DNA of 29,616 nucleotides, taken from IMG/VR virus record IMGVR_UViG_3300027977_002131, positions 1 through 29,616 of that record, one strand, 5' to 3'. The position numbers and the translations under genes are program-made. Positions 1 to 24,478 of the stretch are shown here, piece by piece. The stretch's first letter is position 1. Every line of letters starts with the position of its first letter. The notes under the pieces are model-generated. The model made no database searches. It was not told the DNA's origin and saw only the letters and a list, made by a program, of their open reading frames with translations. Source of the stretch: a virus.

Positions 1-74
1 CATCCTTTTGTTATTATGGATAATCATAGCTCTTTAAATCAACTCAAGAAAAAAACAAACAAATTGGTGCTCAA

Positions 75-419
75 ATGAAAAAATTAATAACTATACTATT
101 AGCCACAATTTTAATTCAAACTTCTTATGCTGAAGATAAAATCAAAATATCAATAAACAAAGATCAAAATGGCAGAATCACCCTTGTTAGCTCTGGTCAT
201 TCAACTCCAATATCTTTTGATATTATGGGCAAAAGTTACGATGTTCCAGCAGGCGGTGGATCAGTAGAAATAGAATCCAATTCGTTTGACATAGAAACAG
301 CAGCAGGAGAGCAGAGTAAAGGTAATCCACCAGCAGTAGTACCTCCAATTGCTTTGCTAATTCCTCCAGTCACATCAGCAGTAAATCCACCACTTGCTAC
401 GCCTATAGGATCAAACTAA
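75..419 (+). CDS. Small exported protein with proline-rich tail
   Basis: The product has 114 residues and begins with a classical Sec signal peptide: two lysines, a hydrophobic stretch (residues 4-15) and a likely cleavage site after TSYA (residue 19). There is no lipobox cysteine, so it should be a soluble periplasmic or secreted protein and not a lipoprotein. The mature part is short and beta-rich in appearance. The last 31 residues are proline-rich (PPAVVPP, LLIPPV, NPPLATP), which suggests an extended linker or wall-spanning tail. The next gene encodes a membrane protein, so a role in the envelope or in lysis is conceivable, but I do not recognise the family. No Shine-Dalgarno (SD) sequence is evident before the ATG. 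Confidence 0.7.
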   Translation: MKKLITILLATILIQTSYAEDKIKISINKDQNGRITLVSSGHSTPISFDIMGKSYDVPAGGGSVEIESNSFDIETAAGEQSKGNPPAVVPPIALLIPPVTSAVNPPLATPIGSN

Positions 420-437
420 TGTGTAAGCTTTTATGAT

Positions 438-704
438 ATGCTATTTAAAATCAAAAATTGGTGGGGTAATTTAAAAACTTATGATAAGTTCTTTTTTATC
501 TCATTTGTGCCAGCGATACTTTTCACGCTTTGGGGGCTAAGTGATCTTTACTTTAATTACTTTGATTTATTAAGTAAGGAAGATCACCTTCAATTCTTTC
601 TTAGGTTTGCTTTTCCAATAGCACTAGCCACATTAGTAACAGTTTTAGAAAACAATAATAGAAAAAAGCTTATAAAAGATATAAAAAACTACTTAAAACA
701 GTAG
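438..704 (+). CDS. Small two-helix inner-membrane protein (holin-like candidate)
   Basis: The product has 88 residues with two hydrophobic segments, roughly 18-38 and 52-70, separated by a short polar loop containing SKEDH. A basic C-terminus (NNNRKKLIK) follows and probably stays in the cytoplasm, placing both ends inside. Small size, two helices and a charged tail are typical of many phage holins, but equally of uncharacterised membrane proteins. No endolysin is visible in this window to support a lysis cassette. It lies 18 bp after the exported-protein gene and 13 bp before the leucine-rich-repeat gene, so co-transcription is likely. Function is uncertain. Confidence 0.6.
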   Translation: MLFKIKNWWGNLKTYDKFFFISFVPAILFTLWGLSDLYFNYFDLLSKEDHLQFFLRFAFPIALATLVTVLENNNRKKLIKDIKNYLKQ

Positions 705-717
705 TGTAATATAATTT

Positions 718-1896
718 ATGGCTTTTATAGTTAAAAAAATAATCTCTTCAGCGTCCATTTTAATTAAAAGAGACGCAATCTTCAAAATTCTTCGGCCAAA
801 TCCTTTAGGAAATTTTTGGAACTTCACTCAGAATCTTTATAATAAAACAATAAGTAATTTTAATCTTACATATGCTGGTGGTCAAGTCGATATTAATTGG
901 GGCGAAGAAAGTGTTAATGAAAGTATACCTAATAATACAAATATAAGTCATACATTTGGAAACACAACGCAAGGTATTTCAATTCTTGCAAGAAACGGAG
1001 CAAATATTACGAATATTAACTGTGGCGTCAGTAGTGTGCCCAGGCTCAGTGGCACAGTGGACATTTCTGCTTTTCCTAATTTGCAGGGGTTTACATGCAA
1101 TTCCAATGACATAACAGCACTGTCTGGTTATGCACAGAACAGCAATTTAATAAATGTTCAGTTTTATAATAATAAAGTAACTGGACCCATTCCTACTTTG
1201 AGTGGCTTGACTGGTTTGCAAACTTTCCTGTGCTTCAGCAATCTGCTCACTGGACCCATTCCTGCTTTGAGTGGCTTAAGGAATTTGCAAAATTTTCAGT
1301 GCTATTCAAATCAACTCACTGGACCCATTCCTACTTTGAGTGGCTTGACTGGTTTGCAAACTTTTATATGCCAAGACAATCTGCTCTCTGGACCCATTCC
1401 TGCTTTGAGTGGCTTGACTAATTTGGTAGATTTTCGTTGCAAGAACAATCCACTTGGTGGATCAATTCCTAGTTTGAGTGGTTTGAACAATTTGCAAAAT
1501 TTTCAATGTCAAATAAATTCATTAGTTGGGTCCATTCCTGCACTCACAGGTTCTCCAGTGTTAAATACATTTTTGTGCGATCGAAATAATCTCACTGGAC
1601 CCATTCCTAGTTTGAATGGCTTGAGTGCCATGCAAGATTTCCGTTGCCACACAAACCAGCTCACAAATTATGCAGGTGGTTCTGTTTCCAATACTTTAGG
1701 AAACTTTCAAGCAAATAGCAATCAATTAACTTCCGCAGCAGTAAATGCTATTCTTGCAGCTTTTGTTACAGCGAACAAAACAACTGGCACTAGAGTTTTG
1801 AATTTAGGAGGCGTTGGAAATGGTGCGCCCACAGGCCAAGGAATAACAGATAAAGCTACTCTTATTTCTAGAGGCTGGACAGTAACAACAAATTAA
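718..1896 (+). CDS. Leucine-rich-repeat adhesin/fibre-like protein
   Basis: The product has 392 residues. Residues about 45-100 look like a PKD/BspA-type beta-sandwich (INWGEE near 59-64, HTFGNT near 78-83). Residues about 150-318 hold seven tandem 23-residue leucine-rich repeats of the plant-like form GLxxLxxFxCxxNxLtGpIPxLs. The C-terminus ends in a cap (TGQGITDKATLISRGWTVTT) of a kind that recurs in phage and bacterial surface proteins. No signal peptide is seen, so it is more likely a virion structural protein (fibre tip or decoration) than a secreted one. Recognition of a host receptor is an inference from the repeat type. The 69-bp DNA period is kept almost without change. Confidence 0.7.
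   Translation: MAFIVKKIISSASILIKRDAIFKILRPNPLGNFWNFTQNLYNKTISNFNLTYAGGQVDINWGEESVNESIPNNTNISHTFGNTTQGISILARNGANITNINCGVSSVPRLSGTVDISAFPNLQGFTCNSNDITALSGYAQNSNLINVQFYNNKVTGPIPTLSGLTGLQTFLCFSNLLTGPIPALSGLRNLQNFQCYSNQLTGPIPTLSGLTGLQTFICQDNLLSGPIPALSGLTNLVDFRCKNNPLGGSIPSLSGLNNLQNFQCQINSLVGSIPALTGSPVLNTFLCDRNNLTGPIPSLNGLSAMQDFRCHTNQLTNYAGGSVSNTLGNFQANSNQLTSAAVNAILAAFVTANKTTGTRVLNLGGVGNGAPTGQGITDKATLISRGWTVTTN
1183..1665 (+). repeat. 69-bp tandem repeat coding the LRR array
   Basis: The motif ggacccattcct or a close variant recurs at 1183, 1252, 1321, 1390, 1459, 1528 and 1597, exactly 69 bp apart, giving seven units of 23 codons with no indel. The first four units and the last share most bases (ctcactggacccattcct and ttgagtggctt blocks); units five and six have drifted. 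The exact period and near identity would allow gain or loss of units by recombination while keeping frame. Confidence 0.9.
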
Positions 1897-19710: not shown

Positions 19711-20457
19711 ATGATACCGTTATTCAAATCTCACTACTCTTTGGGAAGATCTATTTTGACTCTTGAAGATAAAGATGAAAAAGATGATTATCCAGATTCT
19801 ATCATCCAAATTTGCAAACAAAACAAAATGAAAGAACTTTATCTAGTAGAGGATAATATGTCTTCATTTCTTGAAGCTTACTCTAATTGTCGTAAAAATA
19901 AAATCAAATTGAATTACGGGTTAAGAATATCTGTTACAGAATCAATGAGTGATAAATCTGAAGAATCTAAGACCAAGTCCTCAAAGATAATTTTATTCTT
20001 TAAAAACAAAAAAGGATACCAGCAATTAACAAAGCTTTATAGTATAGCAGCGAAAGAAGGGTTTTATTATGAACCGAGATTAGACTACGAGACAATTTCT
20101 AAAAATTGGACTGATGATTTAATTTTATGTATACCTTTTTATGATTCTTTTATATTCAATAACACTCTTAAAAATAGTCTTTGTATTCCGCAATTTGATT
20201 TTACGAAACCCATCTTCTTTATAGAAGATAATGATTTACCATTTGATTCACTAGTAAAAGAAAAGGCTGTATCTTTTGCAGAAAAGAATGGCCTCAAAAT
20301 ATATAAAGCTCAAAGCATTTTCTATAATTTAAGAGAAGATTTTAAAGCTTATCTAACCTTTAGGTGTATTAACAATAGAAGTATTTTATCTAAGCCTAAT
20401 TTAGATCATATGTCAAGCAATGAATTTTGTTTTGAGAGTATTAATAAAAGGAGCTAA
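19711..20457 (+). CDS. DNA polymerase III alpha, separate PHP domain
   Basis: The product has 248 residues and corresponds to the N-terminal PHP part of DnaE. It begins IPLFKSHYSLGRSILTL, equivalent to the H-x-H-S-x-Y-S-L start of DnaE, and ends with LTFRCINNRSILSKP, then LDHMSSNEFCFESI, the stretch that in DnaE joins the PHP domain to the palm. The two histidines expected at the start (HLHS) read FKS here, so metal binding and any PHP exonuclease activity are probably lost. It should associate with the core encoded at 21315 to rebuild a complete alpha subunit. A perfect SD follows at its 3' end for the exonuclease gene. Confidence 0.78.
   Translation: MIPLFKSHYSLGRSILTLEDKDEKDDYPDSIIQICKQNKMKELYLVEDNMSSFLEAYSNCRKNKIKLNYGLRISVTESMSDKSEESKTKSSKIILFFKNKKGYQQLTKLYSIAAKEGFYYEPRLDYETISKNWTDDLILCIPFYDSFIFNNTLKNSLCIPQFDFTKPIFFIEDNDLPFDSLVKEKAVSFAEKNGLKIYKAQSIFYNLREDFKAYLTFRCINNRSILSKPNLDHMSSNEFCFESINKRS
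20448..20453 (+). promoter_or_regulatory. Strong ribosome binding site for the exonuclease gene
   Basis: AAGGAG lies 4 bases before ATG 20458 and just before the stop codon of the PHP gene (agcTAAATG). It is among the few clear SD sequences in the window and occurs where the gene is internal to an operon, in contrast to the leaderless promoter-proximal genes. Confidence 0.75.
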
Positions 20458-21096
20458 ATGGACGAGCATCTATTAAGATACGATAAAGATAAAACTATAG
20501 TTTTTATAGATTGCGAAACATTTAATCTTTGTCTTAATTTTTGTCATAATATTCCTTGGCAGATAGCAATGATAAAAGTCAAAGGCGATAAGAAGATAGA
20601 CCAGAAGAATTTTTATTTAAAATGGGATACAGACTTAAAGATAAGTGAAGATGCTGCGAGAATCACAAGATACGATCATAGAAAAGTGCAAAAAGAAGGC
20701 TTTGATCCAAAAGAGGTATTTCCTACCATAAAAGATTGGCTCGGTCATGCAGATTATATAATTGGACACAATATTTTAGGATTTGACATTTATCTTATAA
20801 AAGAATATTATAAAGCTATGGGATCGACTTGGAAAGGATTAATGAATAAAATCATAGACACTAATGCTGTAGCTAGGGGCATAAAATATAATTCTATTTA
20901 TACTCCTAAAGATGATTTACTTGAGTATCAATATAAAATTCTTAATACTAGAAAGAAGAACGTTAAAAGCTCTTTAACTTTTCTGGGTAAAGAAAATGGC
21001 ATAGAGCACGATTATGAAAGTCTTCACGATGCAATAAATGATCTTGATTTAAATTTAAAAGTATGGAATAAATTAAAATGGCAGGTAGAGATATAA
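20458..21096 (+). CDS. DEDDh 3'-5' exonuclease (DnaQ-like, proofreading)
   Basis: The product has 212 residues. All DEDDh residues are visible: D18 and E20 in VFIDCETFN, D110 in IIGHNILGFD, and H190 with D195 in LHDAINDLD. It should remove mismatched 3' nucleotides for the polymerase encoded around it, like the epsilon subunit of bacterial Pol III or the exonuclease domain inside PolC. It contains no obvious clamp-binding motif. The gene lies directly between the PHP gene and the polymerase core, starts at the PHP stop codon with a strong SD, and is followed one base later by a small acidic protein. Confidence 0.87.
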   Translation: MDEHLLRYDKDKTIVFIDCETFNLCLNFCHNIPWQIAMIKVKGDKKIDQKNFYLKWDTDLKISEDAARITRYDHRKVQKEGFDPKEVFPTIKDWLGHADYIIGHNILGFDIYLIKEYYKAMGSTWKGLMNKIIDTNAVARGIKYNSIYTPKDDLLEYQYKILNTRKKNVKSSLTFLGKENGIEHDYESLHDAINDLDLNLKVWNKLKWQVEI

Positions 21097-21097
21097 A

Positions 21098-21325
21098 ATG
21101 GGCTCATTAGACAATATTTATGATACTATACAAAAGTTAGAAGACTATGATATAGAATATCTTCTTATAACCGTAGAGAAAGGCAAGAAACAAGGTAAAG
21201 CCGATGTATTTTACAGTTTAAAAGACAAAGCCTCCATGAAAATATTGGCAAAAGGCTTACATGTTTTTAACGAAGAAATAGATAAAATTTCAAAAGAGCA
21301 AGAGGAAGACGAAAATGAAGACTGA
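21098..21325 (+). CDS. Small acidic-tail protein between exonuclease and polymerase
   Basis: The product has 75 residues. EYLLITVEKGKKQGKADVFY looks like a strand-turn-strand, followed by a helix (MKILAKGLHVFNEEIDKI) and an acidic tail EQEEDENED. It begins one base after the exonuclease stop and overlaps the polymerase core by 11 bp. Position makes it a candidate accessory subunit that links exonuclease and polymerase (as theta does in E. coli), but there is no detectable relation to known subunits. The plan resembles the small protein at 14652. Confidence 0.62.
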   Translation: MGSLDNIYDTIQKLEDYDIEYLLITVEKGKKQGKADVFYSLKDKASMKILAKGLHVFNEEIDKISKEQEEDENED

Positions 21326-23903
21326 TAATTACTCTGATATAAAAGATTTTTCGGATAAATTTGAGGGTGCAGAGTTAGATATTCATGGAGTTAGATTACC
21401 AGAGTTTGAAATTGATTTGGCCTCTAAAAGACATTTAGGGATAAGCGAAGATTCATCGAATTATGATTTTTTAAGAGCTTTAGCATTAAATGGGTTTAAA
21501 ACTTTAAATATTAATAAATCTGATAAAAATTATAAGAAGTATGTTGATAGAGCAAAACATGAATTAGATACTTTAAAAGAATTGGGTTTTATTGATTATA
21601 TATTATTAGTATGGGATGTTATTGATTTTTGTAAAACTAGTGATATTCCAATAGGTTTAGGTAGAGGTTCAGCGGCTGGGTCTTTGATATTATACTTGGT
21701 AGGCGTTACTAGGATCGATCCAGTCAAATATGACCTCTATTTTGAAAGATTTATATCCAAGATTCGCGCTAAAAAGCAGGTTGTTGATGGGGTGACTTAT
21801 CTAGATGGTAGTTTGATGTGTGACGTAGATTTAGATATTTGTTATTATAATCGTCAAAAAGTCCTGCAATATTTAGAAAACAAGTTCAAAGGCAAAACTA
21901 GTAAAATATTAACCTTTAATAGTTTAAGTGGAAAATTGCTTATTAAAGAATGTGGTAAAATTGTTGCCGAAAAACCAGAGCAAGAAATGACAATGATCTC
22001 TTCTTTGATTCCTAAGACTTATGGTCAAGTTAAGGATATTTCAGAAGCTTATCAAGAAGTTGAGCAATTTAAAGATTGGTGTGATCAAAATAAAGAAGCA
22101 TATCAAATCGCTCTTAAATTAAGAGACTTAATTAAGAATAAAGGAGTTCATCCTTCTGGTGTATTACTTTCTTATTATGATCTAGAAACTATATGTCCAA
22201 CAGAATTTTCTTCAGATAAAGAAGTAGTATCTAGTTTTGATATGAATTGGGCAAGTGTTTTTAATATAAAGCTAGACATCCTTGGGTTAAGAAGTGTTTC
22301 TGTAGTAGATAATGTTTGCAAGAGCATTAAGATAAAAATAGAAGATATTGATTTAAATCATGAATCTATTTATAGAAATTTACAAGATTTAAAATCACCA
22401 CATGGTTTATTTCAAATTGAAGCAGAAACTAATTTTAGAGTATGTCAAAAAGTTAAACCAAAAAATCTAGAAGAACTTAGTGGTGTTCTTGCTTTAGCTA
22501 GACCTGGAGCACTTCAATTCGTAGATAAATATGCAGCTCATACAAATTATCAACAATCAGAAAGTATTCATCCGTTCTTTGATGAAATTTTAAAAGAAAC
22601 TGGCGGAGTTGCTTTGTATCAAGAGCAATTAATGAAAATGGCGAATAAGATTGGCTTTACTTTAGATGAAGCAGAAATCTTAAGAAGAATTGTAGGTAAA
22701 AAGAAAACTGAAGAGATTAAAGCTTGGCAACAAAAGATTGATCAAAAATGTAAACAGAATAAAATTCCAAAAGAAGTTAGTGAAATTCTATGGAAGATTC
22801 TTGAAGACTCCGCTAATTACTCCTTTAATAAATCACATTCTATCGCTTATGCTGGATTAGCAGCAATTACAATTTATCTTAAGTTCAATTATCCTCAACA
22901 ATTCTTTTTATCATTATTAAAGATGAGTAGGAATGAACCAGATCCAATTGGAGAAATATCTAAGATCCAAAAAGAAATGCATAATTTTGGTATCAAGCTT
23001 CTTCCTCCGCACATTATTAAATCAGAAATGGATTTCTCAATCGAGGATAAGGATATTAGATTTGGCTTATTATCAATCAAAGGGATTAGCGATAAATCAA
23101 TAGAAAAACTAAATAGTTTCAGAAATAAATATTCTAATAAATTTGAAATATTTGAAGCCGCAGAAGAAGCTGGATTAAATATTGGAGCATTATCTGCATT
23201 AATTCAAGCTGGAGCCCTCAGTGGTTTTAATCAATCAAGAAGCAAAATAGTATTAGAAGTCCAACTATGGAACATGCTGACCTCTAAAGAGAAAAAATAC
23301 GCTATATCATTTGCAGATAAATTTGACTATGATCTAATTAAAATCATTAAACATCTTAATAAATTCACAGATGAGAAAAATAAAGCAGTAATTAAAGACA
23401 ATAGATTAGAAACTATTAAAGAAAAGTATACGCCATATTTAAGTATATATGAACAAAACAACAAAAGCGAAAGCTTTGCTAATTGGTATTACGAAAAGAA
23501 ACTCTTAGGGTATACTTATAATAAAAGTCTTAAAGACATCTTTGCTGAAAAGAGAGAGAATCTTAAATATGTATCAGATGTATTAGATGAGCCAGTAAAT
23601 TCCAAAGTAGTTTTAGTCGGTCAGATAGAAGAAGTATTTTCTGGGATATCTAAAAATGCAAAAAAGACAAGATATGTCAGACTAAAAGTATCAGATGAAA
23701 CTAATACAATTAGCGTATTAATATTCAATGATAATATTGAGACAAATAAATTATTAAATAATAGAAATTTTGAAGAAGGAAACATTGTTATAGTCAAGGG
23801 TTCTAAAAGAGATGATTGTATATTTGGTGACCTAATAGCCGTTCAAGACCATGAGATATACATGAAATTAAATGATTTAAAAAAGATAGATAAAAATACT
23901 TGA
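21315..23903 (+). CDS. dnaE: DNA polymerase III alpha, catalytic core (DnaE-type)
   Basis: The product has 862 residues. It starts just after the PHP junction (RLPEFEIDL is the counterpart of the YLPQF stretch of DnaE). Palm motifs are LGRGSAAGSL (residues 115-124), CDVDLDI (169-175, carrying the two catalytic Asp of PDFDVDF) and KLDILGLR (D321, third Asp). Fingers follow, with ALYQEQLM and RRIVGKKK blocks and NFSKSHSIAY-like SFNKSHSIAYAG. A helix-hairpin-helix (ALIQAGALSGF) and a C-terminal OB fold (VVLVGQIEEVFSGISK to IVIVKGSKRDD) complete it. Core plus PHP protein total about 1110 residues, close to DnaE (1160). It is the replicative polymerase of the phage. The AGAGGA SD-like stretch precedes its start. 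Confidence 0.92.
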   Translation: MKTDNYSDIKDFSDKFEGAELDIHGVRLPEFEIDLASKRHLGISEDSSNYDFLRALALNGFKTLNINKSDKNYKKYVDRAKHELDTLKELGFIDYILLVWDVIDFCKTSDIPIGLGRGSAAGSLILYLVGVTRIDPVKYDLYFERFISKIRAKKQVVDGVTYLDGSLMCDVDLDICYYNRQKVLQYLENKFKGKTSKILTFNSLSGKLLIKECGKIVAEKPEQEMTMISSLIPKTYGQVKDISEAYQEVEQFKDWCDQNKEAYQIALKLRDLIKNKGVHPSGVLLSYYDLETICPTEFSSDKEVVSSFDMNWASVFNIKLDILGLRSVSVVDNVCKSIKIKIEDIDLNHESIYRNLQDLKSPHGLFQIEAETNFRVCQKVKPKNLEELSGVLALARPGALQFVDKYAAHTNYQQSESIHPFFDEILKETGGVALYQEQLMKMANKIGFTLDEAEILRRIVGKKKTEEIKAWQQKIDQKCKQNKIPKEVSEILWKILEDSANYSFNKSHSIAYAGLAAITIYLKFNYPQQFFLSLLKMSRNEPDPIGEISKIQKEMHNFGIKLLPPHIIKSEMDFSIEDKDIRFGLLSIKGISDKSIEKLNSFRNKYSNKFEIFEAAEEAGLNIGALSALIQAGALSGFNQSRSKIVLEVQLWNMLTSKEKKYAISFADKFDYDLIKIIKHLNKFTDEKNKAVIKDNRLETIKEKYTPYLSIYEQNNKSESFANWYYEKKLLGYTYNKSLKDIFAEKRENLKYVSDVLDEPVNSKVVLVGQIEEVFSGISKNAKKTRYVRLKVSDETNTISVLIFNDNIETNKLLNNRNFEEGNIVIVKGSKRDDCIFGDLIAVQDHEIYMKLNDLKKIDKNT

Positions 23904-23935: not shown

Positions 23936-24478
23936 ATGATATCATTTTATAAACCAAATAGTAAAAGTAGTGGAACAGCTTGTAGTTTCAGTGTAAATCC
24001 AAAAGATAGTTCGATATGGAGTTCGTTAATCAAACAAAGTTCTTGGAACGAAGGAACAAAAACAGGTTCATTTATAGATAATAAAGATGATCCACAAAAA
24101 AGTGCTAGAATTAAGTATTCATTAACAGAAGTAGCAGCATTACTAGAATCCTTAGATAAGAATGTTGAATTTTCAGCATATCATTCTTCAGATAAACAAA
24201 TTACAAAAATTAAATTTGGGCCTTATATTAAAGACGGCAAGCAAGTTGGATTTTCATACTCTGTAAATAAAGAGAGTAAAGATAATATAGAAAATAAACA
24301 ATCCTACTTGATTGGGTTCTATAGTAACGAAGCAAGACTTTTGAGAGAATTTTTATCGTACTCTCTTAGTACAGTTTTTGATTGTCAAAGAATCGAAAAC
24401 ATTAAAAAGATTAAAAATTCAAAACCAGCGCAAAATGAGAAACCATCAGAAGACAATGACGATGGCGAACTTTGGTAA
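23936..24478 (+). CDS. Putative ssDNA-binding protein with acidic tail
   Basis: The product has 180 residues. FYKPNSKSSGTACSFSVN opens the fold, and KYSLTEVAALLESL, then EFSAYHSSDKQITKIKFGPY and VGFSYSVNKES follow. This order of beta hairpins and a helix resembles the PC4/YdbC/Whirly type of ssDNA-binding proteins seen in some phages. The C-terminus is a linker (KPAQNEKPSEDNDD) ending GELW, comparable to the acidic, hydrophobic-tipped tail through which SSB proteins recruit partners. Strong own promoter and place after the polymerase support an SSB role. No other SSB is in the window. The family call is my inference. Confidence 0.6.
   Translation: MISFYKPNSKSSGTACSFSVNPKDSSIWSSLIKQSSWNEGTKTGSFIDNKDDPQKSARIKYSLTEVAALLESLDKNVEFSAYHSSDKQITKIKFGPYIKDGKQVGFSYSVNKESKDNIENKQSYLIGFYSNEARLLREFLSYSLSTVFDCQRIENIKKIKNSKPAQNEKPSEDNDDGELW

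Follow-up and report, generated by a model that had tools for sequence, protein, structure and literature searches.

Can a replicative DNA polymerase remain in use when one of its domains has been cut away and is made as a separate protein? The question is raised by a virus record of 29.6 kb, IMGVR_UViG_3300027977_002131, whose whole 29,616 nucleotides are the window analysed here and supply the coordinates used below. DnaE, the alpha subunit of DNA polymerase III (Pol III), usually holds the PHP, palm, thumb, fingers and HhH domains in one polypeptide. In the window the PHP domain and the catalytic core are encoded by two open reading frames (ORFs), and a DEDDh exonuclease and a small acidic protein are encoded between them. 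A preliminary description of the sequence had proposed that a DnaE is split here at the PHP/palm junction with its exonuclease in the gap, and both the four ORFs and the split are borne out (Table 1). The reading preferred here, with a probability of about three in four, is a three-part replicase in which a catalytically dead PHP subunit re-associates with the core in trans and the exonuclease proofreads. We infer the mutual binding of the parts, the carriage of the exonuclease by PHP and the role of the replicase in vivo from the evidence that follows.

Table 1. Polymerase genes of the window and their replication neighbours (aa, amino acids; pI, isoelectric point)
Feature	Position	Strand	Remarks
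PHP subunit, 248 aa	19711..20457	+	DnaE-type PHP domain, stand-alone protein; 0/9 canonical metal ligands retained
DEDDh 3'-5' exonuclease, 212 aa, presumed proofreader	20458..21096	+	RNase_T, phrog_192
Small acidic protein, 75 aa, pI 4.55, optional	21098..21325	+	3' end overlaps core gene start
Catalytic DnaE core, 862 aa	21315..23903	+	Palm, thumb, fingers, HhH, weak OB; without PHP domain
Downstream neighbour, 180 aa, no convincing family	23936..24478	+	Adjoins core in most loci
DnaG-type primase, 299 aa	17089..17988	+	DNAG_N, Toprim; phrog_47 3.2e-26
DnaB-like replicative helicase, 494 aa	14964..16448	+	phrog_19 1.6e-58

Profile searches identify the two halves as parts of one DnaE. The PHP protein matches the Pfam PHP family (PF02811, 2.9e-15) and the NCBIfam DnaE model TIGR00594 (6.5e-20). 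The core matches the Pfam families DNA_pol3_alpha (8.8e-56), finger (5.7e-34), HHH_6 (1.1e-17) and, weakly, OB, and it matches the DNA polymerase family phrog_405 in PHROGs (2.3e-155). The exonuclease matches RNase_T (Pfam, 2.1e-13) and the DNA polymerase exonuclease subunit phrog_192 (1.9e-22), and tblastn found no match to it in annotated phages. When the proteins are placed on a reference profile of six intact DnaEs (1087 positions), PHP spans positions 24-247 and the core 284-1052 without overlap; the two ORFs therefore follow each other along a single DnaE of which little is lost, as the preliminary description had held. About 36 profile positions between them are left uncovered, and most of these are probably accounted for by the N-terminal ~25 residues of the core, which are conserved among the relatives described below (F...F...DLPLHGVRLPxF).

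The order of PHP, exonuclease and core had also been likened to PolC. The PolC of Firmicutes likewise belongs to the C family and has its DEDDh exonuclease beside PHP, but it is a single chain in which the exonuclease is inserted in PHP, and its core and N-terminal domains are different. Descent from a PolC whose exonuclease lay inside PHP would produce the same superficial order, and the best PolC structure is the next match after DnaE (Z 28.2) to the predicted PHP-core model discussed below. Even so, the likeness does not hold, since PHP scores 6.5e-20 with DnaE against 1.1e-6 with PolC models, the strong NCBIfam matches of the core are to DnaE models only with no PolC model matched, PHP is uninterrupted and the PolC N-terminal domains are not present. 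A dissected PolC is thus extremely unlikely, the profile scores and the uninterrupted PHP ruling out such an origin.

Relatives of the locus were gathered in five scans, four covering viral contigs and one genome contigs. They come from uncultured freshwater and marine viruses and range from identical to 42% pairwise core identity. After removal of duplicates there are 153 distinct cores, 137 of them with the whole region, and in all 137 the order is PHP, exonuclease and core, each in its own open frame. The survey for fused forms, a check set in advance by the preliminary description, found none among these loci, and the longest core frame in the relatives, 886 aa, is too short to include PHP. 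Among the 16 cores without the whole region, 14 have less than 2.1 kb of upstream sequence. In one of the other two (L080) the PHP and exonuclease genes lie upstream in the usual order and ~8 kb is inserted before the core; the other (L122) has 4 kb upstream of the core and no PHP on the contig, the end of which lies there. Because the order is held in 137 of 137 loci with cores down to 42% identity, the split is old and stable.

All three genes are under strong purifying selection. Measured against close relatives, the ratio of non-synonymous to synonymous substitution rates (dN/dS) lies at ~0.025-0.045 for PHP and ~0.02-0.04 for the exonuclease and the core. A decaying or mis-sequenced DnaE would also leave two ORFs that jointly make one DnaE, as seen here, yet the layout is the same in every distinct complete locus, dN/dS stays within ~0.02-0.045 across the three genes, and the halves lie in different frames with 857 bases between them. 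There is virtually no chance that this explanation holds; the constancy of the layout and the low dN/dS exclude sequencing error, chance and decay. A recent split is excluded as well, since the split clade is monophyletic in the core tree (100 in the Shimodaira-Hasegawa-like approximate likelihood ratio test, SH-aLRT) and has a long stem. The tree is a quick one with some long branches, among them FADO, which joins the split clade at 89 and whose placement is unsure. In one locus (L123:1751-3067) the PHP frame is 439 aa long, with ~190 extra residues after the PHP domain. Close relatives were also found in contigs of metagenome-assembled genomes labelled Flavobacteriaceae, Flavobacteriales, Lokiarchaeota and Woesebacteria, and naming a host from these labels was dropped because they are too inconsistent.

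In the window the PHP stop codon, TAA, directly abuts the exonuclease ATG, so that the two genes share one frame with only TAA between them, and a single frame offset occurs at 54 of 58 tight exonuclease-core junctions. Both features would suit a continuous DnaE restored by intein or intron splicing, stop-codon read-through or programmed frameshifting. However, tight PHP-exonuclease junctions have a common frame in only 3 of 83 loci, and the constant offset at the exonuclease-core junction is what is expected of ATGA-type start-stop overlaps and translational coupling. What fills the interval is an exonuclease, conserved and under purifying selection; the core of L080 lies ~8 kb from its exonuclease, and no Rfam intron family was found in the region, inteins not having been searched with a model. 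Restoration of a continuous chain is consequently very unlikely.

The PHP-exonuclease junction is an insertion hotspot. In 86 loci no more than 30 bases separate the two genes; the gap measures 351-1000 bases in another 37 loci and is still wider in 7, so that it exceeds 350 bases in 44 of 137 loci (for example L001:2802-3419, L075:4738-5346 and L056:2612-3085). The inserts belong to many unrelated families, including a cupin, an HNH endonuclease, phrog_18407 of unknown function and several without a family. In genes broken into pieces by homing endonucleases, such as phage nrdA, the endonuclease gene sits in the gap of the split gene. An HNH-like ORF is present in the L075 gap, and none of the remaining inserts that were tested matched a nuclease family. 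The small acidic protein, which has no convincing family in Pfam, PHROGs and NCBIfam searches, is accessory, confined to part of the clade, and is not required: of the 78 loci in the window's clade with both exonuclease and core, only 60 carry a homologue, and it is missing where these two genes abut.

The state of the active sites differs sharply between the parts. The motif of an active polymerase PHP consists of nine metal ligands, HHDHEH[C/H]DH (PMC12926913). All nine are lost in 22 of 22 representative clade PHPs aligned with intact DnaEs, and a lysine stands at one of the ligand sites (LFKS versus LHxH of active PHPs). The metal motif is intact in the PHPs of actinophage DnaEs, split or fused. 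In the exonuclease, the DEDDh residues D18, E20, D110, H190 and D195 are kept in 131 of 131 sequences; the same is true of the core aspartates D170, D172, D174 and D321, and the palm motif GRGSAAGS is invariant in the clade core alignment. An active PHP-type proofreader, as in the DnaE1 of T. aquaticus and M. tuberculosis, was considered and rejected, no ligand being present in the 22 clade PHPs. In bacteria, a dead PHP correlates with a separate exonuclease (PMC3666897), and the combination found in the clade fits this correlation. Core residues 150-167 (window ~21762-21815; IRAKKQVVDGVTYLDGS) include ~14 extra residues, compared with cellular DnaE, between FERF and the catalytic DxDxD. This addition is highly conserved in the clade and lies near the site at which the DnaE of Cellulophaga phage phiST is split.

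Structures were predicted with AlphaFold2 on joined chains with glycine in place of each stop codon, a modelling device that makes no claim on translation. The PHP-core chain consisted of the PHP of the relative L194, out-of-frame filler and the core, cut at residue 1200, and its paired alignment rows came from 31 relatives whose PHP and core are by chance in one frame. The predicted local distance difference test score (pLDDT) is mostly 75-92 in PHP and core and ~23 in the filler, and the predicted template modelling score (pTM) is 0.63. The model superposes on the intact DnaE 5lew with Z 38.1 and root-mean-square deviation (rmsd) 5.5 over 833 residues (model 1..1095), and on 2hpi with Z 35.5 and rmsd 5.6 over 870 residues. 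Since the core can supply at most ~637 of the 833 residues aligned with 5lew, at least ~196 PHP residues take part in that superposition. The model thus supports, though it does not prove, a placement of PHP roughly as in intact DnaE.

The chain of the window PHP, glycine and exonuclease is predicted with both domains well folded and a pTM of 0.77, which suggests that PHP and exonuclease have a defined mutual placement. The pLDDT of PHP in this model is ~90 over residues 31-200; low confidence at PHP 203-249 is left uninterpreted because ~9 residues per PHP row were misplaced in the alignment. The exonuclease model matches E. coli epsilon with Z 19.6 and rmsd 2.1 over 169 residues, and it matches exonuclease I, DinG and the PolC exonuclease about as well.

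A close parallel is the E. coli Pol III core, which has in common with the clade a dead PHP, a separate DEDDh exonuclease and a DnaE polymerase. There, epsilon sits on PHP (PMC3642679), but PHP is covalently part of alpha, whereas it is a separate protein in the clade. A free PHP subunit is plausible because residues 1-270 of E. coli alpha, on their own, are well behaved and bind epsilon (PMC3642679). The three-part replicase may be pictured in steps. An ancestral DnaE alpha would have been cut just behind the PHP domain, which became a separate, catalytically dead protein. The free PHP would dock non-covalently at its old site beside palm and thumb and stabilise the core, and the docked PHP would seat the separate DEDDh exonuclease in the way that epsilon is seated in E. 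coli. The exonuclease would perform the proofreading, and the three subunits would be made from genes that adjoin and often overlap. A search of ten clade contigs (98-184 kb, not known to be complete) for family A or B polymerases gave no match.

Several points weigh against this replicase. Structure prediction, a kind of check proposed in the preliminary description, did place PHP on the core as in DnaE, but in a joined chain and with a pTM of only 0.63, and since AlphaFold2 knows intact DnaE, the docking may be remembered; the binding of the parts to one another is thus a predicted one. The exonuclease stops at the end of its fold and does not have the long C-terminal tail that E. coli epsilon wraps around PHP, so that the PHP-exonuclease contact would differ from that in E. 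coli. No match to the beta-clamp family DNA_pol3_beta_2 was found in the ten large clade contigs, a clamp motif and a host clamp not having been tested. Finally, locus L001 is a mosaic whose PHP and exonuclease both match those of L030 at 92% identity, while the core is 97% identical to that of the window's group. PHP and exonuclease can therefore transfer together onto another core, and a tight PHP-core match is not required.

The L001 mosaic also favours the view that PHP has left the polymerase body altogether and acts on its own as an adaptor or regulator, perhaps of the exonuclease or a host protein, with a core that works without PHP. In L001 the two proteins moved together and apart from the core, they are modelled together with the higher pTM given above, and other genes are freely inserted between them. 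Nevertheless, PHP keeps its DnaE character along its whole sequence, is modelled in its DnaE place, has never lost its order with the core, and evolves in step with it (r 0.93), although this is expected anyway of genes linked in one phage. Moreover, PHP mutations in E. coli destabilise the entire polymerase (PMC3666897). A free adaptor is, on balance, unlikely, and the three-part replicase is preferred. An extension of the latter is possible and is put forward tentatively, namely that PHP and exonuclease form a separable proofreading module that docks on PHP-less DnaE cores and is exchangeable between them, with PHP an enzyme domain turned adaptor and the obligate replicase of the clade composed of three subunits.

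A divided Pol III alpha as such is already known. The Microbacterium cluster EF phages are described, in one sentence, as having two genes related to Pol III alpha where one is typical (PMC7302621). The comparison made here rests on the annotated cases CoolCookie (gp55/56) and Onyinye (gp82/84) and not on the phages of that paper themselves. In both, DnaE is likewise divided between the PHP region and the core, but, unlike in the clade, PHP keeps the full metal motif, the break is ~35 residues further downstream, and the gap holds no exonuclease but a 92-aa protein or nothing. In the core tree both nest within actinophage DnaEs that are fused, so their splits appear to be separate events.

Other phages share single features with the clade. 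The DnaEs of the Wifcevirus Escherichia phage Mansfield and the Pbunavirus Pseudomonas phage Sealy have a PHP degenerate as in the clade, and in Mansfield an epsilon gene lies directly upstream of DnaE; unlike in the clade, PHP remnant and core form a single fused protein (965 aa in Mansfield, 1035 aa in Sealy). In phiST and Rossellomorea phage phiT1, DnaE is in two genes, as in the clade, but PHP stays joined to the N-terminal part, the cut being inside the palm in phiST (526 + 677 aa) and between palm/thumb and fingers in phiT1 (573 + 469 aa). The phiST locus (L368, HQ634192; 41632-45232, minus strand) consists of two overlapping DnaE frames with the break just before the catalytic aspartates. 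The families phrog_13169, phrog_7513 and phrog_12219 have limits matching this split, which suggests that the phiST-type split is present in more phages. DnaE fission seems to have occurred several times in phages, and the split of the clade looks independent of those in Onyinye, CoolCookie, phiT1 and phiST.

What is new in the clade is that the dead PHP is a free protein, that the exonuclease has a fixed place between the two halves, that the break point differs and that the arrangement is universal across a large, uncultured group; searches of the open-access literature brought up no account of the PHP-exonuclease-core layout in aquatic phages. The metal-ligand loss, the partial spread of the acidic protein, the insertion hotspot and the other split phage DnaEs were absent from the preliminary description. 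The PHP domain has been described as strictly conserved in bacterial replicative polymerases and often dead, the reason for its retention being open (PMC3666897). A detached, dead PHP under strong selection in more than 100 phages makes a structural or adaptor role measurable by adding or omitting one protein. From the clade one would obtain a replicase with polymerase, scaffold and proofreader as separate components for mixing in vitro. The clade also contributes a seemingly independent case to the repeated fission of DnaE in phages.

In addition to the primase and helicase (Table 1), the window encodes ThyX, a UvsX-like recombinase and a PD-(D/E)XK nuclease. The 180-aa protein encoded downstream of the core, for which Pfam and PHROGs gave no convincing family, probably belongs to the same operon. 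It has an acidic C-terminus with a hydrophobic last residue (NDDGELW), which, as a guess from analogy, may resemble that of single-strand DNA binding proteins.

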